The notes under the pieces: model-generated
Seen by the model: only the letters and a program-made list of their open reading frames with translations
What the model was told of the DNA's origin: nothing
Databases searched by the model: none
Program-made: the position numbers and the translations under genes
NCBI RefSeq assembly: GCF_964204645.1
Contig: NC_134034.1
Coordinates: forward strand, 13,087,962-13,151,961
DNA from: Tubulanus polymorphus
Lineage: Eukaryota; Nemertea; Palaeonemertea; Tubulaniformes; Tubulanidae
DNA length: 64,000 nt
Reading direction: 5' to 3'
In this document: one piece after another, positions 3,613 to 53,690 of the stretch
Position numbering within the stretch: position 1 is the first letter of the stretch
How the letters are laid out: every line of letters starts with the position of its first letter

Positions 3613-4227
3613 CAGGGACCTTATTTTCGTAGACTAGAAAATCCTATGAGCTTAAGGATCACTTTGAATCATTGAACTCATTGAGAATGAGAAAGTTTGT
3701 CGTACGGAAATTAATAATAATTTTACTGAATCGTTGAATTCACTGGTCTTTGGAAATGGTTGAGAACAGGTCTTAAGTTGTTAGATTGGTTTTAGAACTA
3801 AAATCAGCTTAGACTTGCCTAAAGTTGAACTAAAATGAATTTAGACTAGTCATGAGTTGTAAGATTGGTTATGGAACCAGAATGAACTTAAACTAGTTTT
3901 AAGTTGTTTGTTTGATCGGTTATAGAACCAAAATGAATTTTGACTGGTTTTAAGTTGTGATATTGGTTATAGAACCAAACTGAGTTTTGACTGGTCAATC
4001 TACCAGTCGGTAGATTGGTTGCAGAACCAGAAACAATGAGCTTAAACTGGTCTTAAGTTGTTAGATTGATAGGTTATAGAGCCAGAATGAGCTTAGACTG
4101 GTCTCAAGCTGCTAAGTTGGTTATAGAATGGTCGAAGACCGGTTCTAAGTTCATAGCTTGGCTACAGAACCAAAATCAGCTTAAACTGGTCTGAAATCCC
4201 AAGTCATAATTACGAAACAGGTCCCTG
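3613..4227. mobile_element. TIR-bounded element filled with a short tandem repeat
   Basis: Left end CAGGGACCTTATTTTCGTA, right end (reversed) CAGGGACCTGTTTCGTAA, forming an imperfect TIR. The interior, from about 3740, is a run of diverged units of about 45-50 bp built from TTAGATTGGTTATAGAACC and GACTGGTCTTAAG. No coding capacity and no clear target duplication, so the boundary call is tentative. Confidence 0.55.
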
Positions 4228-6641
4228 GGGTTCAAGTTAGTCGATATATTATCACGGTTGCCAGGGTTTGGTGATGATGTACGTTAATTCGTGTAGTATA
4301 AACATTTTCTAGATATTTGAAATAATCTTGTATAATCATCTTATTCTTCATTCCCTCGTACACGGGCAGGAATCGTGTAATTGAAACCTGGAAATTCTCA
4401 CACCTGTCTCATCGTGTATCGTCCAGCGTGACTGGGTTATTATTGGAATGTGATACGCGGAACGATCCAGGGGGACTGTTGGGACTTGTACAAGTTCGTC
4501 AAATGTTTCGAGTGACCTTTTCTATTTAATCAGCAACTTCCCTTTTGGAATGTGACAAATCCTTCAAAATTAGTAGTACACAACATGATATGATATTGCC
4601 TTTTTGACAAGTCTCTCAGAACTGACCTCTGGATCTACCGCTGCATATTTCGGGCGCTTTACTTAATAATCAATCTGTGTGATGAAATGGTAGGTTTAAG
4701 AAAAAGTATGACAATTTATCATCATGACTGTTACGAGTTAAACAAGATAAAACAGGGGGCCAACTACGAGCAAGCGAAGAAATTTGAAATAAAGTTTACA
4801 AGAATCGTATTTGAAATAGTTCGTTTTCTATTTTGTCTTTTATTGTTGCATCGTCGTCGATGATTGAACGTGACTTGGAAAATCTGAAGATCGTGAACTG
4901 AACGCTAGCTCAGGACGACTTATACAACCCGATCCCTTATCGTCGCAACAGTCTGCGATTTGCATATGAATACCTGGCCACATCGCGGTGAATTAGAGGA
5001 TCATCATTCATTCAATTCGACTTTTTCAACCCCCTTTCCCTCAACACAAAATCGGCCATTTTTTAATATACATTAAGCATTACAGTACACAATTGCACTG
5101 ACCCCTCCCCCTCCCCTAATGCGTACGTTATACATGAATGATCTCTTAGCTCTAAGTCGCGAATTCTACTTGTTGGGAACCGTTTCGACGTTGAATGTAC
5201 TTACGATCGCGACGAACTGATCGCAGACCAATCGTAAGCCAAATCGCAAGGATAAACACTTTCTATTCCTACGACCCGATCGTAGCCATCAGTGACCAGT
5301 TACGAATCGAGTGACTCATGTGATGCTCCCTGATTGGCTACGATGACTTATAGACCCGGCGATGATCGAGTTGTTGTAGTCGACCAGGGCCAACTTCGGT
5401 TTTCGCGGCCGGCTAGTCGACTAGTGGTCGGAACTAATAACCGAACGCACCATAGCGCGGAAATGGGAAATGGGTCGGAACTACAGCGACTGTGCTCAAT
5501 CCCGTGGTCGACCATTTCCGGACCATAGTTCCGCCTAACTGACATTCGCTTTTCGTTTAGTTCGACTATAATCGACTAGCTCCGATAATCGAAGTTCGCC
5601 CTGACTCTTTTACGAGTGCACTTTACGACGTTGCGACAAACGAATCGACAGTCGACGGTCACGTGTTTATTACCGGTGTGAACGAGTCGTTTATAGTTGA
5701 CCGGATGCCGGCTACAGTCGTCGACCAATTCGATCGGTTGCGTCAGCATCGGACATAAATTACTTCTCAAATCCCAATTCGATGTTAGTCAGTAACCTGT
5801 CTGTGGTTTAGTTTCACGATCGGATATTTTCACAAACCACTCATCCGATTATAAAAAGCTTACCACCAACGATTAGGTAACTAACTAAATTCGATGTATA
5901 CCGAGCGTTGGTTGCCACCAAAAATCGCCCAAAAAGAAAAATCACGAAATATATATAATATCTATTTATGTGTACATTTATTGACGATTTCCTGATCATA
6001 CAGTAGGCTATATAAGTGCTGGGGCTTCGTGGTTGTTCGCGTGGGTTCCTGTGGATAAGGAAGGACCGATTGAATTGTACCATAACTAGCCCGACTCCCG
6101 TCGCGTAGACAGCGTCGTAACTAGGATTTTAAAGGATCCGAATTGATACACGTGGAACTATATGCCACATATGCTTTACATCGTATTCGCTGTCAAAGCA
6201 ATTGAAATTGCTTGAATGTTCTTTAAAAAGCCTAAGTTCGAAATTCGATGCTCTTTTAGAGCGATGTTTACTGGACCTTTTATGGCGAAACATTTTACGA
6301 AATTTCGGAATGTAAAACAAGAAAATTCGGTACTAAACGATGCGAACGTTGATTCTTAAAAGGGATCGTCCGCACTACCCCCCCCCCCCTCCCCGACCCC
6401 TCTGGTGTGACACCCATGTAGAGTGCGATAGCTCCTAACTAGTCTTGGGTGCGAGATGAGCATAGTTGCATAGTGAGGTGGCTCTTCACTAGTCTGTGTG
6501 GAGTACGTTAGCTCTTTTTGTCTGGAAACTAGGTATACAGACTTTCTCGTATCTTAGGTGGCGTAAACATCAATCCGATGGGGAATTTGGTTTCCAATGC
6601 TACTGCGGCAATCGAGGGTTCATACCGGCCTTTTTGACCAT
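4228..6641. other. Intergenic stretch between SOAT and the guanylate cyclase
   Basis: No gene recognised. An AATAAA on the minus strand at 5977-5982 is a plausible poly(A) signal for the cyclase gene, about 660 bases past its stop. Positions 5786-5833 hold one copy of an old dispersed repeat (GTCAGTAACCTGTCTGTGG) found again at 18357. A C-run lies near 6379. Confidence 0.5.
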
Positions 6642-9600
6642 CTATTCAGAAACTTGCGATTGTTGCGTTTTAATCGAACGTGACGTCAACGATTCTTGCG
6701 CGACGAAGTTTCTAATAGGCTGTTGCACGCCGCATTCCGGTTTCAGCTCGATCGTCGAGTCTTTGCCGATTTTCAACTTGATTTGTGATTCGAATTTCAA
6801 TAACCAGTAGGTGACCATTTCACCTTTACCCTGCAACACAGAAAATCAGAATAGTAAATGATGGCTGTTGATTGTGGTTCATATGGCAGCTGATTGTGGT
6901 TGATATGACTGCTGATTGTGGTTCATATGGCCGCTGATTGTGGCTTATTTGGCTGCTGATTGTGGTTCATATGGCTGCTGATTGTGGTTTATTTTGCTGC
7001 TGATTGTGGTTCATATGGCTGCTGATTGTGGTGCATATGGCTGCTGATTGTGGTTCATATGGTTGCTGATTGTGGTGCATATGGCTGCTGATTGTGGTTT
7101 ATATGGCTGCTGATTGTGGTGCATATGGCTGCTGATTGTGGTTCATATGGCTGCTGATTGTAGTTCGTATGGCTGCTGATTGTGGTGCATATGGCTGCTG
7201 ATTGTGGTTCATATGGCTGCTGATTGTGGTTCGTATGGCTGCTGATTGTGGTGCATATGGCTGCTGATTGTGGTTCATATGGTTGCTGATTGTAGTTCAT
7301 ATCAAACAGTCGTTTTTGTCATTATTAAAACACGCGCTGATTTCTCGCTCGAAACAAACCTTAATTTCAGTTTTTCCGCGCTGTTCCACTGCAAACATGT
7401 CCGTTTTCTCTAACATTCTCGCTGTTCTGGCGCTGATGTGGATGCGATTTGCTGCAATGGAAAGGTTCCGAGCATAATCTATGATAAATAGTTGAAAATC
7501 AATGAACTCGGTAGCGTTGGGACTGCTGTAAATATTTCACCGAGTTGAGAATCAGGGAACTCGGTAGCGTGTTGAGACTGCTGTAAATATTTCACTGAGT
7601 TGAGAATCAGGGAACTCGGTAGCGGGTTGGGACTGCTGTAAATATTTCACCGAGTTGAGAATCAGAGAACTCGGTAGCGTTGGGACTGCTGTAAATATTT
7701 CAAACCTAGGTGTTCATCCCAAAGAATATTTTTTTTGCTGTGTGCCAATTTCCTGATGAACTTACGTAAACCTTGTGACTCCATACGCGAGGCCGTGTTG
7801 ACCGTATCCCCGAACAGGCAATATCGAGGTAAAGCTGTGCCCACAACACCGGCTACAACAGTTCCTACAATAAGTGATAATATTGAGGAGACCCATTATA
7901 GAACATTTAAAAGATTAAACACTCCTGATGATGGGGGAGAGGGAGAGGGAGAGGGAGAGGGAGAGGGAGAGGGAGAGGGAGAGGGAGAGGGAGAGGGAGA
8001 GGGAGAGGGAGAGGGAGAGGGAGAGGGAGAGGGAGAGGGAGAGGGAATTAGCTTTTTAACAGGGAAGGATCACTTACCGGAGTGTATTCCTATTCGGAGA
8101 GACAATTTACCGGAAGTGTCGAACTCTTTTTCGGAAACTACCTTCATGACATCCAGGGCCATCCGGGCTATTTCTGATACGTGACGTCGCCCGTTATGTT
8201 GCGGCAGACCTAACGATATTCATTTCAATATTCGGTATTCATTTCACGTGAAAAACATAAAGCAAAATCCGGAAAAAGGTAAAAACGATTTATCAAAAAC
8301 TATTCAGAAATTGAGAATCGAATAGTAAGGGTCAGGCTAGAAGAGCGCTTTCCACCCAAGCCTGCAATGTCTTCTACTCCACAAACGTAACCCACGAGGA
8401 TGAAAATTCACCATTTTCAAGAGCTATTTCCTCCAGATATTGTGCATTTGAAAGTTGTAGAAGGCAGCGGGGGCAGAGAAACCCTTGGCAATTACGAGTC
8501 AAACATCGATCGATTAAAGACCCTATCAATAACTCTGTTAGGCATTGAAAAGTGCTTGTCAGTCCCAAGTGAAGTCAGTCCCAAGTGAAGTCAGTCCCAA
8601 GTGAAGTCAGTCCCAAGTGAAGGATTCTAACATTGTACGCCGGCGAGTCCCAAAAACATGGCGCCTGGAAACTATAAAAAGGCGTGTTGGATATAACAAT
8701 ATTTCCAAAAAGGGCATCATTTCTACCAAAATTCCTCGGAGGGAAGGGGGGGGGGCTTAAAAACATCGAAGATGCACTGATCGGGTCAAAGTTAACAGTA
8801 ACCGGGTCTTGGCGTTTACTTACCCGATGCTACCATATACTTATCCCCGACCGTTTCCACTTTATAAACGTCGTACAAGTCGATCCTCTCGTCCAGAAGA
8901 CTGTACAAATTACCCAGCAAACCGACGATTTCGATGGGAACCATTTTCGCCGTGATCTTGTTGAAACCGGCGATTCCCGTGAACAGTATCGTCGCCTCTC
9001 GAAAATATTCGGCGTTCACTTCGCGATGGTACTTCAACTGTTCGGCCACCGTGCGCGGCAACATTTGATACAGCAACGAATCGGTGAGTTTCTTCTCTTC
9101 GTTTAGTTCTCTCGTCTTGTCGGCTAAAGTCAACGCGTACCGTTGCATGTCGTTGGTAATTTTGACGACCAGTTTCGTTTCGATCGGACTGATGGCCAGC
9201 GCTATGATGATCATCACGCAATTTAGAACCAGCGACCGATCCGTGGATGATATCTTCTGATCAATGGCGTCGGTTATGACGTCAGCCAGCTTAATTTGCA
9301 TACTCAACAGGGCGTTGATGTATTCGGTCATGTCGTCGAACCAATCGGCGGCCATTTCGTGCGACGTGCCGGTCGTGTTGCGATTTTTGATCTGATATCG
9401 ATACGACTTGATGCGCTTTTCGACGTCTATGCCCGACTGGTTCGTGATGGCGTTCGACACTTCGGTGACGATGCTCGAATAGTTTTGCGCGCCGCGGAAA
9501 AACGTCACGTAGCTGTGATAGCGGTTCATGTAGAAGGTGAAATTGTCGGTGTCGGCGAATCCGTTCATGGCGAAGAATATCGTACCCATCGCCCTCTCGG

Positions 9601-12182
9601 CGCCGCATTCGTCTTTACTGGCCAGAATCTTCTGATAGGCGACCATCGGCCGCCATAGCAGGCCACTGCCAGTGGCTTTAATGGCGTCGTATAGCCAGTG
9701 AACGAGAACGGACTGGATTTCCGAGTAGAATATGATTTCTTCGGTGATCGTTTGCGAAGAGTTCAGGTCCTTGCGCCCGATCTCGTTGCGGTGTTTCGCC
9801 AGGTGAGCGATGAACGAGTATTTGTTTTTGAACTCGGGTCGGGCGATCAGGTCTGGGTTCTCCGGCCAATTCGGGATCGTGGCCACCTATTGGTAAACGA
9901 GAGAGTTATCTTTAAAAGCGCGATACGGAACTGTCACAACAAGGTTTGACTAGTCACCCGTCACAACATGGCGGAGGGGAAATTGCAACACAGTTATTCA
10001 CCAGATGGCGTGACGAGCATTCGATATATTGTCTGTGGGGATGTAGCTCAGTGGTAGAGCGCCCGCTTTGCATGCGGGAGGCCCGGGGTTCGAAACCCCG
10101 CATCTCCAACGATACCTGTTACAGTTACAGTAATATTGATTTTTATAAATGTTTTATCTTCTATGTACCTGGTGGAATCCTCGATTGTCACATGAGCGAG
10201 TTTCCCAGTCTCGCGATACCACCGGGTTCGAATCCCAGCGTCTCCACTTGTGGATCATGACGTCTATGTCTATGGGAACAGTGTGCGTACAACGACTATT
10301 TTTTCTACGTACCTGTGCGTCGGTGCTGGCCCAGAGAGCGTGCAAGAACTGGTTTGTATTCGGTCCGATCGAACTCAAATAGAACGCCGACATGTCGCGT
10401 TCCCGCTGCAGCTCGTGCAGCAAAGTTCCGATTTGTATCGAGAACTCCACCGTGTTCTTAGCCTGGGTAACAATAATAATAGTAACACAGGTCACTAGAA
10501 TGAAACAATGCCGATTTCGCAAAGAATTACTACACCGTCCCAGGTCAAATTAAACCCACACGACCGTGTCGAATTAGATCCATGGTCAAGTCGGGCCCAC
10601 GCAACTGGATATTGGGTGAAGGTGCGAGTCAAATTGAACAGATAGGATATACCCACACAACTGTGGAACTGGGTTTAGGGTAAAAATGAAACCCACAAAA
10701 CTGTAGAACTAGATCCAGAGTCACAACTGTGGAACTGGATCCACATTCAAATATTAAACCCGCATCACTGTGGAACTGGATCCAGAGTCAAATTAAACCC
10801 GTACATCTGTGGAACTGGATCCAGAGTCAAATTAAACCCGTACAACTGTGGAACTGGGTCCAGAGTCATATCAAAGACCCACACAATTGTTGTATCCACA
10901 GTAAAATAAAACCCACACAACTGTGGAACTGGGTTCAGCATCGAATTCAATTGTACACATGTAACTGAAAGAAATAAAGACGCGTCTAGCGCAAACTTAC
11001 TGAAGATAAAGTGATACGAGCTTCTGTGTTGATCACCAGTGAGTAAGTGATAACGCAAACCAATGCAACTGTCGGCACCAAGGTGATACTGAGCATTTTC
11101 ATCAATTGTTTGCGCTTTCCGGACTCCGACAAAGGATCCGGAGGCTTGCACGAGAAACCTATCGATAATCATTAGAAACGGATTTAATAATATTATCACG
11201 TGTATCAATGATAAATTGGATCTATTGGAATCTAAATGAATTTAATAAGACTTATTACAGTTTCCGGGCGCTGTTTTTGGGTACCCCTGGGTCCGCATTG
11301 TTGAATCTTATAATGTTTGTTGTCCCTATTTTTTCTAATTTTCTTATTTCTATTTCGTTCGTATCTCTGGATAGGATGACGATAGAAACGAAGTGAAAAT
11401 ATCGATCAAATTACTAGATCGGGTGCACAGGTACATGCGCAGGTACATGCGCACGAAAACTTGCCGCATCAATCAGATTGCCTGTTGCGTAATCGTTGAG
11501 GCAAATTTCACAGATATCAACTATAAATTGAAACCCGTGATAAAATGAAACGGGATATCTGACTGGCTAATATTGACATCATCTAAGCTTCGTATGCGGC
11601 TACGCACCCGGTCTAATGTGGAGAAGGGCTCGAATCCCTACTAGGGGAGGATGTGACAAAACTAACTTCAAAGCTACACCTGTTACCAACGGTCAATTCT
11701 GGTCAACAATGTCAACATTAAATTACCGAATATGCCAAGTTGATCGCTGCTAATGTTTTCCAGTATATCATCAGATATTTCACCGCTAGGTGTCTCCGAG
11801 GTAATTTCTCGCAGTTCGACTTGTTCGTTGACCGTCGATACCTTTCTGACTAACCCCGCTGCGACCGTCAACGCGTGATCTGAAAACACGAAAATATGGC
11901 GTCGGGATTCGAAAGTTTAAGAGAGTATTATATTTTGGTCAGGAAATCATCTTCTTTATGAACGATTGAATTTCTACTTGTGTGGCAATTCTGCTCAAAC
12001 TGAATACCCCGCGTAGGCCTACCGCGCGGGATCAGATTCATGAATCCCTTACTTTCGGAATGTCTCTGACTTCCCGTCTTACTGTGCGATACTTGACGGC
12101 CGTGTTGTTCACTTGCAGGAACCGCTATCGAATTCTTTTCCAATCTCACCTTCGGCATTGCCGATGACGTCGATGCAATCGC
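6642..12182 (-). CDS. NIT-domain receptor guanylate cyclase (9 exons; N-terminus possibly incomplete)
   Basis: Exons in transcript order: 12023-12182, 11727-11879, 11001-11158, 10313-10462, 8824-9886, 8078-8209, 7766-7864, 7360-7451, 6642-6830. All phases agree (2196 bases, stop TAG). From the first ATG in exon 1 (12158) the product is 723 aa; upstream exons may exist. Approximate order: disordered N-terminus; membrane helix 117-139; NIT domain about 150-410, including [18 protein letters not shown]; second helix 417-434; signalling helix with [15 protein letters not shown] at 470-484; cyclase domain from about 498. Guanine-specific Glu543 (KVETVGD) and Cys613 (RYCLFGD), the second metal Asp547, and Asn620/Arg624 (VNTASRMES) are present. 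The first metal Asp is Gly503 (LFTGIAGF). NIT domains sense nitrate/nitrite in bacteria, and related animal cyclases have been linked to nitric-oxide signalling. cGMP output is the family role; the missing Asp makes activity uncertain. Confidence 0.93.
6857..7306. repeat. 22-bp minisatellite in the last cyclase intron
   Basis: About 20 copies of GGCTGCTGATTGTGGTTCAT plus two bases, with variants TTCATAT, TGCATAT and TTCGTAT. It fills nearly all of the intron between exons 6642-6830 and 7360-7451. Confidence 0.95.
7490..7705. repeat. 55-bp minisatellite (array 1 of family)
   Basis: About four copies of a 54-55-bp unit containing CTGTAAATATTTCACCGAG and GAATCAGGGAACTCGGTAGC, in a cyclase intron. 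The same family forms a longer array at 42062-42605 and a single copy near 16537-16590. Confidence 0.92.
7927..8045. repeat. (GGGAGA)n hexanucleotide microsatellite beside a splice donor
   Basis: About 20 perfect copies, GGGAGA on the plus strand and TCTCCC on the transcribed strand, within the intron. The array ends only about 33 bases from the donor of cyclase exon 8078-8209. Confidence 0.97.
8561..8624. repeat. 16-bp tandem repeat, four copies
   Basis: Four copies of GTCCCAAGTGAAGTCA within a cyclase intron. Confidence 0.9.
10037..10108 (+). tRNA. tRNA-Ala (anticodon UGC)
   Basis: A complete cloverleaf of 72 nt. The acceptor stem is GGGGATG with CATCTCC and discriminator A. The D arm has TAGCTCAGTGGTAGAGC (A box). 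The anticodon stem-loop CCCGCTTTGCATGCGGG places TGC at the anticodon. The T arm is CGGGGTTCGAAACCCCG (B box). A T-run at 10140-10144 may terminate Pol III. It sits inside the intron between cyclase exons 8824-9886 and 10313-10462, on the strand opposite to that gene. No intron is present in the tRNA. Confidence 0.96.
10165..10246 (+). pseudogene. Degenerate tRNA 3' half, about 60-140 bases after tRNA-Ala
   Basis: CCGGGTTCGAATCCCAGCG followed by TCTCCA closely resembles the T arm and acceptor 3' strand of the adjacent tRNA-Ala. The 5' part does not fold as a tRNA. Most likely the remains of a tandem duplicate. Confidence 0.5.
10560..10965. repeat. 39-bp minisatellite (array 1 of family)
   Basis: About ten diverged copies of a 39-bp unit containing CACAACTGTGGAACTGGATC and GTCAAATTAAACCCACA, within the intron between cyclase exons 10313-10462 and 11001-11158. 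The family recurs at 30357-30795, 49140-49415 and 53470-53690, with stray units near 40150-40260 and 41645-41695. Confidence 0.92.
11600..11660 (+). repeat. Single diverged relative of the 77-bp B-box satellite
   Basis: GGGCTCGAATCCCTACTAGG followed by GGAGGATGTGAC resembles the 77-bp satellite core GGTTCAAATCCCTGTGAGGG plus AGGATGTG. It is a lone copy with a better B-box match (TCGAATCC) than the arrays, so it may be close to the progenitor. Confidence 0.5.
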
Positions 12183-13752: not shown

Positions 13753-16700
13753 TCATCTATTGTCCGCTTCCGGTACTGACGACGGTTTCCGGTATTTACA
13801 CTGCACCCAAACGCGATACATTTTCAACTGGCGCCCTCTATTGACCTGCAGTCGTCGATCAACCAGATTCTGTTCTTCGACGAGCCCGGCTTTAGTGAAC
13901 ATGTCCCGCAGTTCGTCTGCAATAAATGACAATACACACTTTGAGAACATGCGGACTGATCTGATACTGCAACTTAGGCTAAAAAAATGATACCTTGTTT
14001 CTCCGCTCTGCTGAGCTTAAAAGTTGACCCTGTCGGCCGCCTATCTACCCTATACATTACTTTTTTAAAATCGTGATCAATTTTACCATAACAGACCCGG
14101 CCGCTATAGACATGAACTGTTTACAAATTTTATCATATCTTACAAAAATGACCCGGCCGCTGCGGAGAAACAAGGTATCATCATTTTTGTTTAGCCTTAT
14201 ACTTCGTGCTTTCAGCCCCTGCATTGCCAACTGCCCTCTTCAAATTAACATTTTTAAAAGTAATCGGGGAAAAAGAATTCCTGGTCAAAATGTACCGATT
14301 TACTCATTCACCATTTTTAATTTTCTATTCGTCAAAATTGAAGGAGTTTCTGGCGTTTTGATGAAAAATTTAACTACAGTCAACCCCCGGATATACCACC
14401 CTACCATACACCGCCACCCCGCCTACCACCAAGTTTTCTCAATGTACATTTCAGTACAAATACATAATAGTAAAACACCCCCGATATACCACCCTACCAT
14501 ACACCGCCACCCCTGCCTACCGCCAAGTTTTCTCAATGTACATTTCAGTACAAATACATAATAGTAAAACACCCCCGATATACCACCCTACCATACACCG
14601 CCACCACTGCCTACCGCCAAGTTTTCTCAATGTACATTTCAGTACAAATACATAATAGTAAAACACCCCCGATATACCACCCTACCATACACCGCCACCC
14701 CTGCCTACCGCCAAGTTTTCTCAATGTACATTTCAGTACAAATACATAATAGTAAAACACCCCCGATATACCACCCTACCATATACCACCACCCCCGCCT
14801 TCTCAATGTACATCTCTATACAAATACATAGTTAAACATCCCCAATATACCGCCCTCCCATACACCGCCACCCCACCTTCCCGTACATCTTTATACAAAT
14901 ACATAGTAAAACACCCCCGATATACCGCCATACTCTCTATACCGCCAAAATCGTATATCGGGGGTCGACTGTAGTTTCGAGGACCTCTAAATGCAATTTC
15001 CGTTCAGAATGAGTTCATTTTAGGAATGAAGGAGTCGTAGGGACCCGATGCGTATTTTTCGTGCGATACCTTGCGTGAAAAAATAAACACGAGTTCCGTC
15101 GCCTCGTACGTAGAAATTATCGGACAAACATCGGCCTTTTTTGAAACGCAGCTGAGCGAGATCGTAACGACCGTAATCACGAAACACGATTAGACCACCG
15201 GGTTTTAAACAGCGACTCAAACGATTTATACTGCTCTGCATTCTGAAAAAAACAGAAAAACCAATTAAGAATACTTTAATCATGAGTACCCAAACTTTGA
15301 CAGTCTACTGTATTTCTCAAATTCTTACTCAGTATTTGACACCAACTCTGGGTAGAATTTTACCGGTCTCAACTTTACCGCAGTAAGAGACAGAGTCTAC
15401 TGTATTTCACAAACTCTTACTCAGTATTTGACACCAACTCGGGGTAGAATTTTACCAGTCTCAACTTTACCGCAGTAAGAGACGGTCAGAGTCTACTGTA
15501 TTTCACAAACTCTTACTCAGTATTTTACACCAACTCGGGGTAGAATTTTACCAGTCTCAACTTTACCGCAGTAAGAGACAGAGTCTACTGTATTTCACAA
15601 ACTCTTACTCAGTATTTGACACCAACTCGGGGTAGAATTTTAACAGTCTCAACTTTACCGCAGTAAGAGACAGAGTCTACTGTATTTCACAAACTCTTAC
15701 TCAGTATTTGACACCAACTCGGGGTAGAATTTTACCAGTCTCAACTTTACCGCAGTAAGAGATAGAGTCTAATGTATTTCATAAACTCTTACTCAGTATT
15801 TGACACCAACTCGGGGTAGAATTTTACCAGTCTCAACTTTACCGCAGTAAGAGACAGAGTCTACTGTATTTCATAAACTCTTACTCAGTATTTGACACCA
15901 ACTCGGGGTAGAATTTTACCAGTCTCAACTTTACCGCAGTAAGAGATAGAGTCTACCGTATAAAACAAACTCTTACTCAGTATCTCACAACAAAGCATGA
16001 ACACCAGAATATTTCCACAACCCTCCAACTAATCTAAATTCCTGGTTGTTACTCACTTGTCGGGATGAATAGCTGACAGGACGAATATAAGAACGATGAC
16101 ATCAATGGATCGGTCCGGAAACGGTAACGGAGTCGTTTCATCGGTTAAATCGTAAACAAAACCATAACATCTTTTCTCATTATATTCATTGTGTTCCTAA
16201 AAAATAACCGTGTACAGTTTAGAGGACTGCATTAATTACGCTCTCGGCACCCAGTTCCATATTTGTGACATGATCCCTACAGACCAGTCATTCCTGGATT
16301 TTAAAGAGTTGACAAGGAGTTTGGAAATGAACTTTGATTTAACTCAAGCCTCAGAGTCCAAGGGGTCAGATTTTAAATGAGAACTTCGGAACTGGGGCCT
16401 GATTTCTTATCTGCGTACCTTGACTAGCTGTATGGCGGATTTGGCGAAATCGCAGCAATACACAAATAAACCGGGATCGCTAAAAAAAAGATTAAAAATA
16501 CATAAATAAGATGATTTTTAAACATTTTCAGCACCTGCTGTAAATATTTCACCGAGTTGAGAATCAGGGAACTGGTGAGGTTAGGACGAAGTATTATTTC
16601 ATAGAGTTAAGAATCAATCTAACACACTTTATAGATTATCAAAATCGCAGACGTACTCATTAGTTTGTAAGACAGGAAATACAGTGTTGCCGACACCGCA

Positions 16701-18029
16701 TCCTACTTCCCAAACACGATAACTAGCATTACAACCCGGGTAAACATCACTAGACGTCACAGGAGCAGACACAACAGGGCCAGGAGCAGATGTCGTAGGA
16801 GCAGACGCCTGAGGAGCAGACGTCACAGGAGCAGACACCTGAGGAGCAGACGTCACAGGAGCAGACGCCTGAGGAGCAGACGTCACAGGAGCAGACGTCA
16901 CAGGAGCAGACATCACAGGACTAGATGTCACAGAAGTCTCTTTCTCCTCTCCCACGTTGACTTTGCGCGGAATTTTTTCGAGCGTCAAATTCGGAGCGAG
17001 TTCGGGAAATTCGGTGAACAGCCAGTGACGATCTTTGAAGAAACGATTTTGATGCTGTTCGTAGAATTCGTGCCAAAACCGGTCGGCGTCGGTTTCGTAT
17101 TCGGCTTGAAACGACAGAAATGAATATTTAGATACGAATGGAAGATAATTATCAGAGATTCAAAGATCTTACTTTAAAACATGTATTGTAATATGGCACT
17201 TCATTGATTTTCAAATAACATGTACCTATTTTTTCATTCGGAAGAATTACTTCGCTGTTCTCGGCTATTTTACCCTCAGCTGCCACAGTCTGCTCCTCAT
17301 CCCATTCGACATTATCCCTGATGGATAAAAAATAAAATTTGCCATTGATGTAATCAGGTTCAAATCCCTGTGAGGGAGGATGTGTCTACTAGGACAGGGG
17401 TTTGTACTGTAACAGAGTCTCATGATGTCATCAGGTTCAAATCCCTGTGAGGGAGGATGTGTCTACTAGGACAGGGGTTTGTACTGTGACAGAGTCTCGT
17501 GATGTCATCAGGTTCAAATCCCTGTGAGGGAGGATGTGTCTACTAGGACAGGGGTTTGTACTGTGACAGAGTCTCACGATGTCATCAGGTTCAAATCCCT
17601 GTAAGGGAGGATGTGTCTACTAGGACAGGGGTTTGTACTGTAACAGAGTCTCATGATGTCATCAGGTTCAAATCCCTGTGAGGGAGGATGTGTCTACTAG
17701 GACAGTGGTTTGTACTGTGACAGAGTCTCGTGATGTCATCAGGTTCAAATCCCTGTGAGGGAGGATGTGTCTACTAGGACAGGGGTTTGTACTGTAACAG
17801 AGTCTTATGATGTCATCAGGTTCAAATCCCTGTGAGGGAGGATGTGTCTACTAGGACAGGGGTTTATGAGGACGAATATTTACCAGGCGTTGTGCTCGAA
17901 TACGTTCTTCTCTCCGGTCAGGAATCTATTCCCGAACTGTGGGCGCTTATTCTGCTCGTCCTGAGTCCCTTCCGAATGGCTCAGATCACCAACAGGGACA
18001 GTGCCATCGGTCGCTGCTTTCGATGACAT
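13753..18029 (-). CDS. METTL2: METTL2-like tRNA (cytosine-3) N-methyltransferase, 7 coding exons, complete
   Basis: Exons in transcript order: 17884-18029, 17226-17317, 16657-17104, 16419-16479, 16057-16196, 15070-15242, 13753-13916. Phases all agree; 1224 bases, 407 aa. Start ATG 18029-18027 lies 13 bases after an acceptor at 18043, so a 5' exon exists; a mitochondrial presequence there cannot be excluded. Family marks in order: [36 protein letters not shown] motif I EVGCGVGN (about 212-219), [56 protein letters not shown], and the tail [25 protein letters not shown]2/8 enzymes make 3-methylcytidine at position 32 of certain tRNAs using S-adenosylmethionine. Residues about 142-198 are an [10 protein letters not shown] repeat absent from vertebrate METTL2. 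A poly(A) signal AATAAA is at 13666-13671 (minus), 82 bases past the stop. Confidence 0.94.
13977..14196. mobile_element. Harbinger-like MITE, copy 1 (220 bp)
   Basis: The ends form an inverted repeat of about 30 bp: GGCTAAA, then GATACCTTGTTTCTCCGC at the left and its complement at the right. It is flanked by TTA on both sides (13974-13976 and 14197-14199); 3-bp TWA duplications are typical of PIF/Harbinger. The interior has a repeated GACCCGGCCGC motif. It lies in the last METTL2 intron. A near-identical copy is at 59079-59299. Confidence 0.85.
14377..14971. mobile_element. Pogo/Tigger-like MITE containing a 94-bp tandem array
   Basis: The left end CAGTCAACCCCCGGATATAC and the reversed right end CAGTCGACCCCCGATATAC form a TIR. 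TA lies on both sides (14375-14376 and 14972-14973). The interior holds about six copies of a 94-bp unit that itself begins CCCCCGATATACCACC, the TIR sequence. TIR start CAGTYGAC and TA duplication fit pogo-type elements. It lies in the same METTL2 intron as the Harbinger-like MITE. Confidence 0.85.
15296..15991. repeat. 92-bp satellite (array 1), in a METTL2 intron
   Basis: About 7.5 copies of a 92-bp unit with TCTACTGTATTTCACAAACT, TTACTCAGTATTTGACACC and AACTTTACCGCAGTAAGAG. The longer arrays of this family at 35573-36965 and 37460-38404 run in the opposite orientation. Confidence 0.97.
16537..16592. repeat. Single copy of the 55-bp minisatellite
   Basis: CTGTAAATATTTCACCGAG and GAATCAGGGAACT match the units at 7490-7705 and 42062-42605. 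It lies in a METTL2 intron. Confidence 0.8.
16745..16930 (-). repeat. In-frame 15-bp minisatellite in METTL2 exon 3
   Basis: About eleven 15-bp units (GGAGCAGACGTCACA-like on the plus strand) encode [15 protein letters not shown] and SAPTT repeats. Because the unit is a multiple of three, length changes keep the frame. It sits between the conserved N-terminal region and SAM motif I, where vertebrate METTL2 has a variable linker. Confidence 0.95.
17345..17866 (+). repeat. 77-bp B-box satellite (array 1), in METTL2 intron 1
   Basis: About seven copies of a 77-bp unit: GATGTCATCAGGTTCAAATC, then CCTGTGAGGGAGGATGTGTC, then TACTAGGACAGGGGTTTGTA and ACTGTGACAGAGTCTCGT. GGTTCAAATCC matches the Pol III B-box consensus. 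The array ends 18 bases from the donor side of exon 17884-18029. Confidence 0.97.
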
Positions 18030-18391: not shown

Positions 18392-18401
18392 GGAATTGGA
18401 T

Positions 18402-22955: not shown

Positions 22956-22959
22956 AGAT

Positions 22960-24190: not shown

Positions 24191-24485
24191 AGATTCGTCT
24201 TGAGCGGAGTCAACTTTATCATCCAACTCAGATATCACTGTCAAGTCAAAAGATCAGACTTGAGCGGAGTCTACTGTATCATCCAACTCAGATATCACTC
24301 TCAAGTCAAAAGATCAGACTTGAGCTGAGTCTACTGTATCATCCAACTCAGATATCACTCTCAAGTCAAAAGATCCGACTTGAGCGGAGTCTACTGTATC
24401 ATCCAACTCAGATATCACTCTCAAGTCAAAAGATCCGACTTGAGCGGAGTCTACTGTACCATCCAACTCATATATCGCTCTTAAA
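24190..24485. repeat. 61-bp minisatellite
   Basis: About five copies of a 60-61-bp unit with GACTTGAGCGGAGTCTACTG, TATCATCCAACTCAGATATC and TCTCAAGTCAAAAGATC. Read in reverse each unit starts TACAGTAGACTCCGCTCAAG, which resembles a pogo-type TIR preceded by TA. Confidence 0.94.
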
Positions 24486-30330: not shown

Positions 30331-30356
30331 AAAGTGGCTTTAGCCCGCATCGACAA

Positions 30357-35572: not shown

Positions 35573-36965
35573 TGTAAAATTCTACCCCGAGTTGGTGTCA
35601 AATACTGAGTAAGAGTTTGTGAAATACAGTAGACTCTGTCTCTTACTGCGGTAAAGTTGAGACTGGTAAAATTCTACCCCGAGTTGGTGTCAAATACTGA
35701 GTAAGAGTTTGTGAAATACAGTAGACTCTGTCTCTTACTGCGGTAAAGTTGAGACTGGTAAAATTCTACCCCGAGTTGATGTCAAATACTGAGTAAGAGT
35801 TTGTGAAATACAGTAGACTCTTTCTCTTACTGCGGTAAAGTTGAGACTGGTAAAATTCTACCCCGAGTCGGTGTCAAATACTGAGTAAGAGTTTGTGAAA
35901 TACAGTAGACTCTGTCTCTTACTGCGGTAAAGTTGAGACTGGTAAAATTCTACCCCGAGTTGGTGTCAAATACTGAGTAAGAGTTTGTGAAATACAGTAG
36001 ACTCTGTCTCTTACTGCGGTAAAGTTGAGACTGGTAAAATTCTACCCCGAGTTGATGTCAAATACTGAGTAAGAGTTTGTGAAATACAGTAGACTCTTTC
36101 TCTTACTGCGGTAAAGTTGAGACTGGTAAAATTCTACCCCGAGTCGGTGTCAAATACTGAGTAAGAGTTTGTGAAATACAGTAGACTCTGTCTCTTACTG
36201 CGGTAAAGTTGAGACTGGTAAAATTCTACCCCGAGTTGGTGTCAAATACTGAGTAAGAGTTTGTGAAATACAGTAGACTCTGTCTCTTACTGCGGTAAAG
36301 TTGAGACTGGTAAAATTCTACCCCGAGATGGTGTCAAATACTGAGTAAGAGTTTGTGAAATACAGTAGACTCTGTCTCTTACTGCGGTAAAGTTGAGACC
36401 GGTAAAATTCTACCCCGAGTTGGTGTCAAATACTGAGTAAGAGTTTGTGAAATACAGTAGACTCTGTCTCTTACTGCGGTAAAGTTGAGACCGGTGAAAT
36501 TCTACCCCGAGTTGGTGTCAAATACTGAGTACGAGTTTGTAAAATACAGTAAACTCTGTCTCTTACTGCGGTAAAGTTGAGACTGGTAAAATTCTACCCC
36601 GAGTTGATGTCAAATACTGAGTAAGAGTTTGTGAAATACGGTAGACTCTGTCTCTTACTGCGGTAAAGTTTAGACTGGTAAAATTCTACCCCGAGTTGAT
36701 GTCAAATACTGAGTAAGAGTTTGTGAAATACAGTAGACTCTGTCTCTTACTGCGGTAAAGTTGAGACTGGTAAAATTCTACCCCGAGTTGGTTTCAAATA
36801 CCGAGTAAGAGTTTGTGAAATACAGTAGACTCTGTCTCTTACTGCGGTAAAGTTGAGACTGGTAAAATTCTACCCAGAGTTGGTTTCAAATACCGAGTAA
36901 GAGTTTGTGAAATACAGTAGACTCTGTCTCTTACTGCGGTAAAGTTGAGACCGGTAAAATTCTAC
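35573..36965 (-). repeat. 92-bp satellite (array 2)
   Basis: About 15 copies; unit in this orientation: TACCCCGAGTTGGTGTCAAA, TACTGAGTAAGAGTTTGTGA, AATACAGTAGACTCTGTCTC, TTACTGCGGTAAAGTTGAG. A three-monomer (276-bp) variant pattern, GTTGATG, then CTTTCTC, then GAGTCGG, occurs twice (35775-35870 and 36051-36146). Confidence 0.98.
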
Positions 36966-37459
36966 GGCGAAGAGCGCTCTTCTACTCTATCACGACCTTC
37001 ACCCGACAAAATCTCGTCAATTCACGCGGAGTTTAACGAGATGTAATAGCTCGCACTCCTGTCGTCTGCGCGATCGATGACGATAATATAACGATATTAT
37101 TGTATTTTATGAGCGCCCCGCTCGAGTCGACATATCGCCGCGCGGTATAGCATTGCGACCGTTATGAGATATTTCAACTGTCAACAATAATAATCTTTCT
37201 GCTGCCTCCGCTGCAGGTTGCAGGTATATCCAAGCATTGCCATGCACCTTTTCCTCGGAGCACTCCCTAATTGGGTAACGGGAATGCTACTGCGGTGGCA
37301 ATCGAGGAGGATTGTTCCCGTGCTAAGTTGGGTATTTGTTTATGGGGAGCAAACCGTCCGAGCGTATTATTCTTGGAGCAAAGTATCGTTGACGTTGCGC
37401 GAGAAATTGTGAACCTATTCGGTCAAACCGGTGCATTTCTGTTTCGTCACAAGCTCCAG
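36966..37459. mobile_element. 494-bp insertion in the 92-bp satellite, flanked by an 11-bp direct repeat
   Basis: Arrays 2 and 3 are interrupted here. TAAAATTCTAC ends the left array (36955-36965) and begins the right one (37460-37470), as expected if an insertion duplicated 11 bp of satellite. No terminal inverted repeat or poly(A) tail is seen, so the element class is unknown. AATGCTACTGCGGTGGCAAT inside it resembles a segment near 6597. Confidence 0.5.
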
Positions 37460-38404
37460 TAAAATTCTACCCCGAGTTGGTGTCAAATACTGAGTAAGAG
37501 TTTGTGAAATACAGCGTAGACTCTGTCTCTTACTGCGGTAAAGTTGAGACTGGTAAAATTCTACCCCGAGTTGATGTCAAATACTGAGTAAGAGTTTGTG
37601 AAATACAGCAGACTCTGTCTCTTACTGCGGTAAAGTTGAGACTGGTAAAATTCTACCCCGAGTTGGTGTCAAATACTGAGTAAGAGTTTGTGAAATACAG
37701 CGTAGATTCTGTCTCTTACTGCGGTAAAGTTGAGACTGGTAAAATTCTACCCCGAGTTGATGTCAAATACTGAGTAAGAGTTTGTGAAATACAGCAGACT
37801 CTGTCTCTTACTGCGGTAAAGTTGAGACTGGTAAAATTCTACCCCGAGTTGGTGTCAAATACTGAGTAAGAGTTTGTTAAATACAGCGTAGACTCTGTCT
37901 CTTACTGCGGTAAAGTTGAGACTGGTAAAATTCTACCCCGAGTTGATGTCAAATACTGAGTAAGAGTTTGTGAAATACAGTAGACTCTGTCTGTTACTGC
38001 GGTTAAGTTGAGACTGGTAAAATTCCACCCCGAGTTGATGTCAAATACTGAGTAAGAGTTTGCGAAATACAGTAGACTCTGTCTCTTACTGCGGTTAAGT
38101 TGAGACTGGTAAAATTCCACCCCGAGTTGGTGTCAAATACTGAGTAAGAGTTTGTGAAATACAGTAGACTCTGTCTCTTACTGCGGTAAAGTTGAGACTG
38201 GTAAAATTCTACCCCGAGTTGGTTTCAAATACTGAGTAAGAGTTTGTGAAATACAGTAGACTCTGTCTCTTACTGCGGTAAAGTTGAGACTGGTAAAATT
38301 CTACCCCGAGTTGGTGTCAAATACTGAGTAAGAGTTTGTGAAATACAGTAGACTTTGTCTCTTACTGCGGTAAAGTTGAGACTGGTAAAATTCTACCCCG
38401 AGTT
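37460..38404 (-). repeat. 92-bp satellite (array 3)
   Basis: About ten copies of the array 2 unit. In its first half, copies with CAGCGTAGACTCTG alternate with copies with CAGCAGACTCTG, a dimeric higher-order pattern of about 185 bp. Confidence 0.98.
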
Positions 38405-40750
38405 GATAAACAGAAAACAGAAACTGCTGCGCATTTCTACGCAAGAAACCAATGGTCTGAAAGCGGTTTCAATCAGTATAAGTGCCGCTGATTCGGAAGT
38501 GTATATTTAAATCAAATCCTATTTAATACCGACACGAAATTGGATTTCTTCACGCGTTACTGTGGTTGACGCATTGTACGACGATTGTGCAACGGTATCT
38601 ATTTTTCATTTTTCGTCAGTGTTGTCACAATATTATCGTTCCGTCGGAGCCACCCCAGGTTTCATCGCAGCTTTTTCCTCTCATCTCGCCGTTTGGTTTC
38701 GTCTTCGAGGTTTTGATATCCCGCGCGCCAAACAGCGGCGTGACGTAAACGAGGACTCCATCTCATACATAGTGTGGGAATTAACCCTTTTCTTGCGACT
38801 ACTTTCGAGAAAATACCACCCGATCCGTGCTGTCGTATATAGTGCTGTTAATGGAATATGTTCTATTTTTTTCGCTACGAGGGGTTGATTGCGAACTCGT
38901 GTCAGTGAGGCTAGTTCACCGATTACCCACGTGTTTTGTTCTAGCGTGGACTAGCAGAGACCATTGTTCGAGCGTGCCGAAGTAAAGCGTGGTCGATCGC
39001 CGAAGCCACCGATGCCTGCCCAACCCCTTTCCCTCTCACAGGATTCGTAGAATCGTAATAGTCAACCAGAATGAGTATCGCTCACGATCGAGTAGAGTTG
39101 TCGGCTACTGCTGCAGATATCGTGTTAATTTCAGTACACCAGAATTTCTGTATAGCGCGGGATAAACTAAAAAAAACTTCGTTCGTCGCGGTGTAATATC
39201 ACGTACTGCGCCTGTCGGGCATTTTCCGCTAGGATTCATATCTTTTTTGTTGTTGTCTGCGACAGAAGTGTGATTATCGTGGTGGTTATACATTGCGTCT
39301 CAGTTATACGAGCCAACAGAATTATCACGACTTCCCGCTGCGAAATGAGAGTCGGCAAGGCGATCATTATAATTTCGTTGTCTTTCGGCCATTTTCGATA
39401 ATAGAATTAGATTCAAGTCGTTTTCTGTCTCGATTTTCGCTACAGCGTCGCGTAAATATAGGCCGCAACAGGTGGCCTATATATACAGGGTCTTGTGCTT
39501 ATTCACGTAATTACACCGTATTCGCGGTTACACAACGAACTCTCGAAGTTTGTAAATAAATCCCCCTGGGGGCCAGTTCCGTGGATAGAAATCTTTTTTC
39601 ATATTTGTCTTCGAAGCAATCGCTGATTACTCCGAAATTCGTCTGCTCGCTATACTCCGATCGGGTCTCGTCGCGAATTTACAAAAGCGATTTGACCTTT
39701 TCTCGTTGTGTTCGACGAAAGCCTTTGATCGGTCGGCGCGCCGCGAGTGCGCACGCGTGCGCGCTCTTGTCATCGGAATTTGCGACGACATATCGACGAC
39801 GAGGGAAGGATTCTAAGCCTGATTCGTGTTACTGTGTGTTCGCTATACCGAAAACAACACAATCCACCAAAGCGAACGAAAGGGCATCAACGGAGATGAA
39901 AGCTGACGCTGCGTTTGTGTCTTTGTGACTGATTACAAACGAGCGGAGGTATAAGCATCTTCATTCTCTAGGGCTATACGTCAAATCTACAGCTATCTAT
40001 ATTAGGAGACACTGGCGACAAATTGTTCTAGCGACTTTTAGACGTTCAGGCGAATGCCGTCTGGAGCCTCAAGTTGTGACCTTGACATTAACCCCCCACC
40101 GACGTTACCATATAGGCGAATTCTATTTCACTAGATTTGATGGCTCTGATTAAACGACAGAACTGAATTCGCAATCAAATTAAACCAGCACAACTGTTGA
40201 ACTCGATCTAGCTTCAGGTTAAGCCCGCACGTTACTGTGGAACCGGGTTCGGAGTCAAATCAAGGACTCATTAAAACAAAGCCAAGATAAAACCGCTACA
40301 AACTGTCGGAAAAAGTTACACAAATTAACTTCGAACGTATTTTCTTCATTTATATAATCCACCCGACTCGTTAGTATATATCGTAAAAAATAACATTGAC
40401 AACGAGTTGTATAGGAAATGAGGCGGCGGTTTCGAGGAAGCGATGTGTTCTCGGTAAATCAGTATTGGACTCGAACGTCACACCAGTCTGACGTCTTCAA
40501 CTCGCGTTGTGTTACTGCAGCCGATAGTAAACAGAAACTTGTGAGGTTTTCCCTTTGATAACTCGACCTTCTAATGATGTTTACAACACTAGCTCAGATC
40601 AATGTTTAATACCACCTCCACCCCTCCTCCTACTACCCACTCTCCGACCCAGTGTATCGATTCAACGTTAAAGCGATGACGATGACGATGATGATGATGA
40701 TAAACGGACAGACGATGAAATATAAAAGTTTGAATTTTACTATTATTAGT
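38405..40750. other. Noncoding stretch
   Basis: Several open frames of 90-115 codons occur on the plus strand (38562, 39293, 39581), but none has a recognisable domain or flanking exon. Stray 39-bp-family units lie near 40150-40260. Confidence 0.4.
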
Positions 40751-42061: not shown

Positions 42062-42605
42062 TTTATATGATGCTGTAAATATTTCACCGAGTTGAGAATC
42101 AGGGAACTCGGTAACGTGTTGGGACTGCTGTTAATATTTCACCGAGTTGAGAATCAGGGAACTCGGTAACGTGTTGGGACTGCTGTAAATATTTCACCGA
42201 GTTGAGAATCAGGGAACTCGGTAACGTGTTGGGACTGCTGTTAATATTTCACCGAGTTGAGAATCAGGGAACTCGGTAACGTGTTGGGACTGCTGTCAAT
42301 ATTTCACCGAGTTGAGAATCAGGGAACTCGGTAGCGTGTTGGGACTGCTGTCAATATTTCACCGAGTTGAGAATCAGGGAACTCTGTAACGTGTTGGGAC
42401 TGCTGTAAATATTTCACTGAGTTGGGAATCAGGGAACTCGGTAGCGTGTTGGGACTGCTGTAAATATTTCACCGAGTTGAGAATCAGGGAACTCGGTAGC
42501 GTGTTGGGACTTGCTGTAAATATTTCACCGAGTTGAGAATCAGGGAACTCGGTAGCGTGTTGGGACTGCTGTAAATATTTCACCGAGTTGAGAATCGGAG
42601 AACTC
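42062..42605. repeat. 55-bp minisatellite (array 2 of family)
   Basis: About ten copies of a 55-bp unit: GCTGTAAATATTTCACCGAG, TTGAGAATCAGGGAACTCGG, TAACGTGTTGGGACT. The same unit occurs in the cyclase intron (7490-7705). Confidence 0.97.
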
Positions 42606-47205: not shown

Positions 47206-47212
47206 TATAATT

Positions 47213-47616
47213 CCACAGTCGTGAGTTAGAGAGTTAACTCCTAGTTAAAATTAGTTCATTTTCGATATGAGTTAACTCTTAACCCACAACACTGTGAAAC
47301 TGGGACCTGGGTCCAGTTCCACAGTTCTGAGTTAAGATTTGACCCTGGGTTAAAACATTGAAAATGAACTAACTTTAACTCAGAGTTAACTCTAACTCAC
47401 AACTGTGGAACTGGGTCCAGAATGATAAACCAATGCTCTGTTCTCCGGTGCCAAGCTCCTCATCAGGACAACTTCTAACTATTGATACACTAACAGAAAT
47501 TGAAACGGTCACTGCCAATGACCAGGGTTCAGTTCCGAGTTAAGATTTAACTCATTGAAAATGAACTAACTTTAACTCAGAGTTGATCTTACTAACAACT
47601 GTGGAATTTGGTCCAT
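47213..47616. mobile_element. Cluster of three short palindromic MITEs
   Basis: The best copy is 47307-47420 (114 bp): left CTGGGTCCAGTTCCACAGTT, right (reversed) CTGGACCCAGTTCCACAGTT, interior GAGTTAAGATT and AATGAACTAACTTTAACTC. Less complete copies are at about 47213-47305 and 47525-47616. The TIR is nearly identical to part of the 39-bp minisatellite unit. Confidence 0.8.
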
Positions 47617-49139: not shown

Positions 49140-49415
49140 GAGTTCAACAGTAGTGTGGGTTTAATTTGACCCTGAACCGGCAGTTCCACAGTTTTGAGGG
49201 ATTGCTTTGACTCTGAGTCCAGTTCCACAGTTGTGTGGGTTTAATTTGACCCTGAACCGGCAGTTCCACAGTTGTGAGGGATTGCTTTGACTCTGAGTCC
49301 AGTTCCACAGTTGTGTGGGTTTAATTTGACCCTGAACCGGCAGTTCCACAGTTGTGAGGGATTGCTTTGACTCTGAGTCCAGTTCCACAGTTGTGTATGG
49401 ATTTAATTTGACCCT
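49140..49415. repeat. 39-bp minisatellite (array 3), dimeric form
   Basis: Alternating units TTCCACAGTTGTGTGGGTTT-AATTTGACCCTGAACCGG and TTCCACAGTTGTGAGGGATT-GCTTTGACTCTGAGTCC give a repeat of about 78 bp, present just over three times. Confidence 0.93.
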
Positions 49416-49830
49416 GGCTACAGGTCCCCAGTTTCCCAGTTCTTTCCATAGTTCTTGGTTAGGATTGAGACTTTATTCGTTTTCAATTTTAAACTCTTGG
49501 GCCAAATTTACACCTATAACCGTCGTCCTGGGTTCCGATTACTCACGTTACCTGCGGATCATTTTCCACAAAACTGCAGGAGTATTCCATTTGGTTTTCT
49601 ATCTTTCTCATTTTCAATCATTCCCAATGAAATCAGTGCAACATTATTGATAGCAAGTTTGTGCTGTAAAGTGCCAATTAGCGAACTCTTTCGCCAATGC
49701 TACAGTATTCAAACTTACCTCGGAAAAACTTCTCGCTTAGAAATCAGGTCGGGCGCATGTACCATCGATCAACCAGTGAATAAATCCATTTCGGTGTCGA
49801 TTCTAAAATCTGTCGTTTTTGCCTCGCTTT

Positions 49831-50844: not shown

Positions 50845-51395
50845 TGGAATTTGATGACATCCATGAGACTCTGTCACAGTACAAACCCCTGTCCTAGTAG
50901 ACACATCCTCCCTCACAGGGATTTGAACCTGATGACATCACGAGACTCTGTCACAGTACAAACCCCTGTCCTAGTAGACACATCCTCCCTCACAGAGATT
51001 TAAACCCTGATGACATCATGAGACTCTGTCACAGTACAAACCCCTGTCCTAGAAGACACATCCTCCCTCACAGGGATTTGAACCTGATGACATCGTGAGA
51101 CTCTGTCACAGTACAAACCCCTGTCCTAGTAGACACATCCTCCCTCACAGGGATTTGAACCTGATGACATCATGAGACTCTGTCACAGTACAAACCCCTG
51201 TCCTAGTAGACACATCCTCCCTCACAGAGATTTGAACCCTGATGACATCATGAGACTCTGTCACAGTACAAACCCCTGTCCTAGTAGACACATCCTCCCT
51301 CACAGGGATTTGAACCTGATGGCATCATGAGACTCTGTCACAGTACAAACCCCTGTCCTAGTAGACACATCCTCCCTCACAAGGATTTGAACCTA
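50845..51395 (-). repeat. 77-bp B-box satellite (array 3)
   Basis: About seven copies in the same orientation as array 2. The last unit decays into unique sequence at about 51395. Confidence 0.97.
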
Positions 51396-53465: not shown

Positions 53466-53469
53466 TTTC

Positions 53470-53690
53470 CTAGGTATTTGTCCTATGACCCAGTTCCCAC
53501 AGTTGTGTGGGTTTTTAATTTGACTGGACCCGGTTCCACAGTTTAATGTGATCAATCTTACTCTGGATCCAGTTCCACAGTTGTGTGCGGGTTTAATTCG
53601 ACTCTGGACCCAGTTCCACAGTTGTGCGGGTTTAATTCGACTCTGGACCCAGTTCCACAGTTGTTTGGATTTGACTGTCAACCCGCAGTA
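53470..53690. repeat. 39-bp minisatellite (array 4)
   Basis: About five copies, reversed relative to arrays 1 and 2: CAGTTCCACAGTTGTGTGGG then TTTAATTTGACTGGACC and variants. Confidence 0.92.

Follow-up and report, generated by a model that had tools for sequence, protein, structure and literature searches.

Terminal pieces of MITEs as a likely source of minisatellites in the nemertean Tubulanus polymorphus

Tandem arrays and transposable elements of the window

The window (the whole stretch of DNA analysed, 64,000 bp, C10:13087962-13151961) is part of the 268-Mb, 77-contig genome of Tubulanus polymorphus, and lies 1.15 Mb from the end of the 14.3-Mb contig C10, the opposite end (start) of which opens with (CCCTAA)n. 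It contains 24 tandem arrays with a period of at least 20 bp and a length of at least 140 bp; by comparison, 18 interior 10-kb sample stretches contain three such arrays, including one satellite that fills its stretch. A single 62-bp satellite array with 31-bp subunits occupies the full 10 kb of C5:12000001-12010000 (L024). The possibility of a link to MITEs was considered for the window arrays with 94-, 60-, 39-, 92- and 77-bp units, and a MITE-end origin was assigned to six of the 24: one 94-bp array, one 60-bp array and four 39-bp arrays (Table 1).

Other features of the window include a long open frame on the minus strand (8816-9886), which we take to resemble a receptor-type guanylate cyclase and to include a nitrate/nitrite-sensing-like region, and two arrays of a 55-bp unit (7490-7702 and 42071-42605), with an inverted repeat, CCGAGTT...AACTCGG, in the unit.

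Table 1. Tandem arrays and MITEs of the window considered here (positions are those of the window)
Feature	Position	Strand	Basis
Degenerate ~50-bp tandem array with TIR-like ends	3613-4227	+	TRF, genome searches
39-bp array, unit corresponding to palindromic MITE end	10560-10945 (TRF from 10723)	-	TRF
Pogo-type MITE expanded to about six ~94-bp monomers	14375-14973 including TAs; element proper 14377-14971	+	Direct reading
94-bp tandem array within the MITE	14383-14933	+	TRF (14383-14800) and motif spacings
92-bp array, having only TACAGTAGACTC in common with MITE TIR	15302-15983	-	TRF, shuffles
60-bp array, unit corresponding to terminal 60 bp, including TA and TIR, of ~180-bp MITE	24199-24481	-	TRF, shuffles
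39-bp array, palindromic-MITE-end unit	30398-30746	-	TRF
92-bp array	35574-36965	+	TRF
92-bp array	37459-38405	+	TRF
Degenerate second palindromic MITE copy	47209-47306, limits approximate		Self-comparison, sequence
Palindromic MITE, TIRs CTGGGTCCAGTTCCACAGTT / CTGGACCCAGTTCCACAGTT	47307-47420		Self-comparison, sequence, consensus of 9 other copies
Degenerate third palindromic MITE copy	47525-47615, limits approximate		Self-comparison, sequence
39-bp array, palindromic-MITE-end unit, 80-bp higher-order period	49141-49416	+	TRF
39-bp array, palindromic-MITE-end unit	53487-53664	+	TRF

The 94-bp family and its one-monomer state

The expanded pogo-type element of the window has the structure TA-CAGTCAACCCCCGGATATACC ... 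GTATATCGGGGGTCGACTG-TA, which confirms an earlier reading made from the sequence only, namely that the 94-bp unit begins with the TIR of the element enclosing it and that this element has intact TIRs and TA duplications. The TIR motifs of its array are spaced at 93, 94, 94, 94, 79 and 75 bp, and the intact right TIR stands next to an internal deletion.

The TIR pattern of this family has 660 matches in the genome with up to two mismatches, and the reversed pattern has none. Twenty loci were taken from the 100 matches listed, eight with a nearby opposed TIR and about 12 others that were topmost. Eleven of the 20 (L029-L033, L035, L039, L040, L042, L047 and L048) are elements of 149-202 bp, both TAs counted, with both TIRs; nine of these have TA at both ends, and L047 and L048 are altered on the left. 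In all 11, the inner TIR motif is present twice in direct orientation, corresponding to one monomer, with a spacing of 61-113 bp that is mostly 90-91 bp. Eight chosen copies yield a 180-bp consensus, in which ACCCCCGATATACCGCC occurs close to the end and once more some 90 bp further in. Given these 11 loci and the consensus, the usual copy among the loci examined is a single monomer between direct repeats, and the expectation that single-copy MITEs carry exactly one monomer was largely borne out. The remaining nine loci include two copies into which other sequence has been inserted (L034 and L036), two stubs (L041 and L043), three copies with the second end altered or absent (L038, L044 and L045) and one with two monomers (L046). 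The last, L037, is a copy of the same pogo-type MITE in whose interior lies a distinct tandem of about 17 bp (GGCGGTATAGAGAGTAT), and therefore amplification in this MITE is not confined to a single stretch.

A ladder of copy number

The one-monomer and expanded states were told apart with a tail pattern, which follows the last motif, and a junction pattern, which leads into an additional monomer. The genome contains 315 matches to element tails and 94 to extra-monomer junctions, the latter distributed over 35 loci with one to 24 matches each. In the 34 junction loci studied (all except L036), there are at least three motif copies in 26, two in six and one in two. Three loci (L072, L077 and L097) resemble altered left ends and not additional monomers, so that about 32 of the 35 are genuine array loci; L098 does continue into monomer sequence. 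The largest array reaches 25 monomers (L078). Right-end sequence is kept in 28 of the 34 loci (26 with a score of at least 42 of 66, L071 with a score of 35, and the window element by eye) and is missing in L072, L075, L085, L086, L093 and L098. Both ends are kept in 17 of the 34 (15 by score, L071 and the window element), the left end having been looked for within 200 bp. The arrays are the same element with additional monomers.

The period is mostly 91 bp, with exceptions of 93-94 bp in the main part of the window array, 95 bp in most of L078 and 75-81 bp in L090. In L087, two 91-bp monomers flank four 70-bp monomers, and in L078, 91-bp monomers are found at either edge of the 25; both patterns fit growth in place from an altered monomer.

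Among the 18 arrays of at least three monomers, mean monomer identity is 0.91 within loci, based on 447 pairs of which 300 come from L078, versus 0.76 between loci. The sequence-only reading had proposed that array monomers should branch inside the MITE phylogeny, but the branching is not simple array by array, with strict monophyly in only one of the 18 arrays (L069, with an identity of 0.98 within versus 0.81 between). In L078, 24 of the 25 monomers form one pure clade, and in L074, L076, L081, L084, L091 and L092, no monomer finds its closest kin at its own locus. In loci with two to seven monomers, 49 of 88 nearest outside relatives occupy the same position, be it first, middle or last, where 32 are expected; none of 2000 permutations reaches this value. 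Because monomers are rarely monophyletic and their nearest relatives keep the same position more often than expected, we read this as elements with few monomers having transposed as such and then grown in place at some loci.

A transposase-coding relative

A family search of the genome returned 75 DDE_1 matches, and the two best loci, L130 and L131, were studied; these copies are alike and do not constitute independent cases. Upstream (5') of the frame, both have TA followed by a TIR with few mismatches to that of the MITE (4/20 in L130 and 3/20 in L131). The first 75 bp of the relative are colinear with the 94-bp-family MITE, with scores of 53 and 61 against shuffle maxima of 29 and 30, and when the TIR is left out of the comparison the score is reached by one (L130) and none (L131) of 1000 shuffles. 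The L130 frame contains a DDE_1 domain (PF03184, E 7.4e-49) and an HTH_Tnp_Tc5 domain (PF03221, E 1.3e-15), with a weak CENP-B match in its N-terminal part. A 3' TIR of the coding relative was not found within the sequence examined around L130 and L131. The 94-bp family therefore combines two pogo/Tigger-type features, a TA duplication and a relative with DDE_1 and Tc5 domains and a matching 5' TIR.

In L130, TTATACCGCC (with at most one mismatch) occurs at the TIR and at +15, +96 and +176 bp, i.e. at spacings of 96 and 80 bp; in L131, the middle motif of this type is too altered for counting. Because the coding relative carries the motif at a similar spacing, the framing repeat of the monomer probably predates the MITE. 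The internal repeats may be putative transposase-binding sites, and such binding could be the cause of their presence.

The 60-bp and 39-bp units

The TIR pattern of the 60-bp family has 1,439 matches in the genome. One of four single interior loci, L109, is a TA-flanked MITE of about 180 bp with CAG-type TIRs at both ends; the right ends are altered in L110 and L112, and L111 has one end only. When the TIR is removed, the 60-bp unit still matches the MITE, with none of 1000 shuffles reaching the score against each of three copies. The presence of a pogo-type TIR preceded by TA in this unit, previously described as a 61-bp unit at 24190, was accordingly borne out, with a TRF period of 60 bp. 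The remainder of the ~180-bp MITE was not found in the flanks of the window array.

The 20-mer CTGGATCCAGTTCCACAGTT of the palindromic MITE has 12,970 genome matches with up to two mismatches, and its reversed control has none. Twenty of its loci comprise nine short palindromic elements with both ends, five one-ended copies and six arrays, and the nine complete copies give a consensus of 114 bp. The 39-bp unit corresponds to the first ~39 bp of this element (score 49, shuffle maximum 26), so that the agreement with the TIR of the MITE at 47307, first noticed over 20 bases, extends beyond them; the 19 bases outside the 20-mer score 21 alone, which is reached in one of 2000 shuffles. The same terminal start is found in 20-bp arrays (L001, L002, L057 and L067) and in a 45-bp array (L056), the remainder of whose unit also matches the MITE, with a score reached in 0 of 2000 shuffles. 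One palindromic element, L007, has two 20-bp copies at one end. By eye, CTG stands right behind the 20-mer in some copies, and CTG or CAG recurs at 38-39; the 20- and 39-bp periods fit the intervals between such CTG/CAG-type repeats. None of the nine palindromic copies shares two or more flanking bases, and no target duplication, TA included, was thus seen in them. An apparent strand bias of the 39-bp arrays was dropped, as perfect matches on the minus strand exist.

Fourteen 39-bp arrays (the four in the window, L058, L101-L108 and L068) were tested for neighboring MITE sequence, and beside 13 of them MITE interior above background is absent. In L068, half an element adjoins the array with a score of 18, the 95% point of the background being 15 and its maximum 28. 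The path from a MITE to a free array was not observed among these 14. For the 39-bp unit, the homology to the MITE is therefore firm and hosting within a MITE is not. The suggestion that MITE ends both seed and host arrays consequently holds for seeding, in the 39- and 60-bp units, and does not hold for hosting, as no MITE interior is found beside the window arrays of these units.

Arrays without an identified MITE origin

Two further cases of the sequence-only reading did not hold. The 92-bp unit had been read as containing a sequence that resembles a pogo-type TIR preceded by TA, and TACAGTAGACTC is indeed present, but the part shared with the 60-bp-family MITE is limited to these 12 bases; beyond them, the score against MITEs with this TIR is reached by 136, 590 and 166 of 1000 shuffles. 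Six 92-bp loci and three 77-bp loci with single or few perfect matches proved to be decayed arrays with no inverted partner within 430 bp. The array at 3613-4227 had been described as a TIR-bounded element. Its TIR-like end, CAGGGACCTGTTTCGTAATT, has one exact match in the genome, in the window itself, and two at two mismatches, the estimated chance number being 0.9. When the entire stretch served as query, matches elsewhere fell almost only at positions 150-591, its tandem core. As these TIR-like ends do not recur in the genome, the stretch was rejected as a TIR element. Among the five cases first proposed, those of the 94-, 39- and 60-bp units are thus retained.

The 77-bp unit forms four arrays in the window, in both orientations (17346-17865, 21837-22946, 50852-51394 and 54002-54571), and contains GGTTCAAATCCC, which may resemble an RNA polymerase III B box. 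No MITE link was found for these four arrays, and the unit, used as a negative control, matches the 60-bp MITE at chance level.

Position along contigs

Among the matches listed, single-monomer MITEs of the 94-bp family track the share of sequence along the contigs, and expanded loci are biased towards contig ends. Within 3 Mb of an end (sequence share 0.26) lie 12/42 single-tail loci and 24/87 TIR loci, versus 23/35 junction loci and 13/15 loci with at least two extra monomers; within 4 Mb (share 0.35), the respective counts are 16/42, 28/87, 30/35 and 15/15. The controls are perfect matches among those listed, with TIR loci reaching up to C11; one match was retained per close TIR pair, and positions were transcribed by hand.

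Label permutation within contigs was used with cut-offs of 2, 3, 4 and 5 Mb. Against single-tail loci, p is 0.047 for the 35 junction loci (0.038 without L077, L097 and L098) and 0.008 for the 15 loci with at least two extra monomers, which sit on just five contigs, with several clustered on C8 and C10. Against TIR loci, the corresponding values are 0.0012 and 0.0002. Stratified by contig, the end bias of all 35 junction loci relative to single-tail loci is marginal. Contig ends serve here as a proxy for chromosome ends, the telomere repeat being present at one of eight ends checked (the C10 start), and the C8 start reads N. Short repetitive sequence was seen at the contig ends L122, L125 and L129 (C1, C2 and C8).

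For the other families, counts are again among the matches listed. At a cut-off of 3.2 Mb, chosen post hoc, 21/21 92-bp arrays lie near an end, as do 8/9 60-bp arrays versus 0/4 60-bp singles, and 8/15 20-mer arrays versus 17/47 singles, which is a weak bias for the 20-mer family. The counts are 12/14 for the 77-bp unit, and for 39-bp junctions 32/52 within 3.2 Mb and 47/52 within 5 Mb (shares 0.32, 0.28 and 0.44). The 77- and 92-bp arrays are equally end-biased with no MITE found, and MITEs are therefore one source of arrays among several.

Proposed origin and alternative explanations

It is likely that terminal pieces of small cut-and-paste transposons have been tandemly amplified into minisatellites, with the anatomy of the elements themselves setting the monomer length. 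Several unrelated MITEs carry a copy of a piece of their own terminus a short distance inside; in the 94-bp family this is 17 bp at a spacing of about 90 bp, and in the palindromic family the internal repeat is about three bases at 20 and 37-38 bp, as judged by eye. Such direct repeats would allow slippage or unequal exchange, with duplication of the stretch that they enclose, and because the duplication would span what lies between the repeats, the element's anatomy would determine the length of the monomer. Transposition would then carry elements with two or few monomers to new sites, and further lengthening would take place in situ, chiefly a few megabases or less from chromosome ends, where high recombination may be the cause of the bias. 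In the 39- and 60-bp families, where the direction from MITE to array is suggested by homology, the remainder of the element would have been lost, or the array dispersed without it.

The order of events could also be the reverse, with pre-existing minisatellites captured by transposons or turned into their ends. The 39- and 60-bp arrays seen do stand free, and the motifs of their junctions or TIRs occur in large numbers, as this would predict. In the 94-bp family, however, tails exceed extra-monomer junctions by 315 to 94, and the coding relative shares the end of the MITE together with a motif spaced at 96 and 80 bp; furthermore, the 20-, 39- and 45-bp periods share the terminal 20 bp, which a single captured array would not yield. 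Capture is thus considered unlikely. Foldback-type elements, in which long TIRs consist of tandem units (as in Tetris) and each array would be one arm, could account for TIR-derived tandem units, for the palindromic MITE and for the nine copies of it without a target duplication. This is very unlikely, since no inverted partner array lies within the 0.6-1.8 kb around 39-bp arrays, where opposite-strand matches are limited to stray ones in L068, L102 and L105, and since the 94-bp family has short TIRs and TA duplications.

Chance, or short shared motifs alone, does explain the similarity of the 92-bp unit past its 12 bases and of the TIR at 3613, but as a general explanation it is extremely improbable, being ruled out for the 94-, 60- and 39-bp families by shuffles and reversed-pattern controls. 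A Helitron or Helentron assignment of the 94- and 60-bp families was also discarded, as TIRs and TA duplications are present. Under the preferred explanation, amplification of MITE ends, a more specific proposal can be made tentatively: position and not sequence may decide the fate of a MITE, which would keep one monomer in the chromosome arms and become a minisatellite near the ends, with a monomer length preset by how far apart subterminal repeats, possibly bound by transposase, stand in the parent transposon.

Comparison with known systems

The birth of minisatellites and satellites from MITEs is already known (Xstir, miDNA4, Tetris), and the comparisons here draw on passages of open-licence articles. 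MITE-born satellites are reported there in frogs, ants, rye and bivalves (PMC12628747, PMC9659126). One of them is miDNA4 of Xenopus tropicalis (Scalvenzi and Pollet 2014, via PMC12628747 and PMC9659126). Like the 94-bp family, it is described as a Tc1/mariner-type MITE with a single monomer or an array of variable length and short direct repeats at the edges. According to the review passage, it arose when a repeat that already existed was captured between AT-rich microhomologies, whereas the framing repeat here is the TIR motif itself, which also occurs in a coding relative, and more than one MITE family is involved in this one genome. Xstir, also from Xenopus (Hikosaka and Kawahara 2004), is found as a MITE, as a tandem array and as composites of the two, side by side. 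Its unit is derived from internal MITE sequence in one account (PMC12628747) and from the TIR in a table of another (PMC9659126); the units described here comprise the outermost 20-94 bp, with a single end giving rise to several periods.

In Drosophila virilis, the units of Tetris/TIR-220 have 37 bp in common with the end of the TIR; they are proposed to provide secondary transposase sites, and satellite growth is said to be favored by the chromosomal environment (PMC4079207). Tandem units sharing a piece of the TIR end and environment-favored growth are points of likeness; as far as the passages drawn on go, Tetris is a foldback element with 220-bp units in beta-heterochromatin, whereas short MITEs and chromosome ends are concerned here. 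CMITE of Acropora also forms MITE tandem arrays, attributed to replication slippage, but these consist of full-sized piggyBac-type MITEs and not of terminal pieces (PMC2872659). Minisatellite birth between short flanking repeats has been described before (Haber and Louis 1998, via PMC6947457), with a first monomer framed by short direct repeats as in the present case, although it is tied in the passages drawn on to Alu and other retroelements instead of MITE ends (PMC6947457). The same source places minisatellites mainly in (sub)telomeric regions (PMC6947457). In the open-licence literature, no evenly spread MITE family that expanded mainly near chromosome ends was found, and the passages drawn on contain no case in which the edge of a monomer had been followed back to a coding parent; Tetris is nearest.

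If position does decide the fate of a MITE, the genome of Tubulanus polymorphus would represent a natural experiment on the birthplaces of minisatellites, with hundreds of near-identical starting points. Hundreds of similar MITEs that start with one monomer, some of which have grown and most of which have not, would test which positions permit the birth of an array while sequence is held nearly constant, and monomer length may be inherited from the anatomy of a transposon instead of arising randomly.
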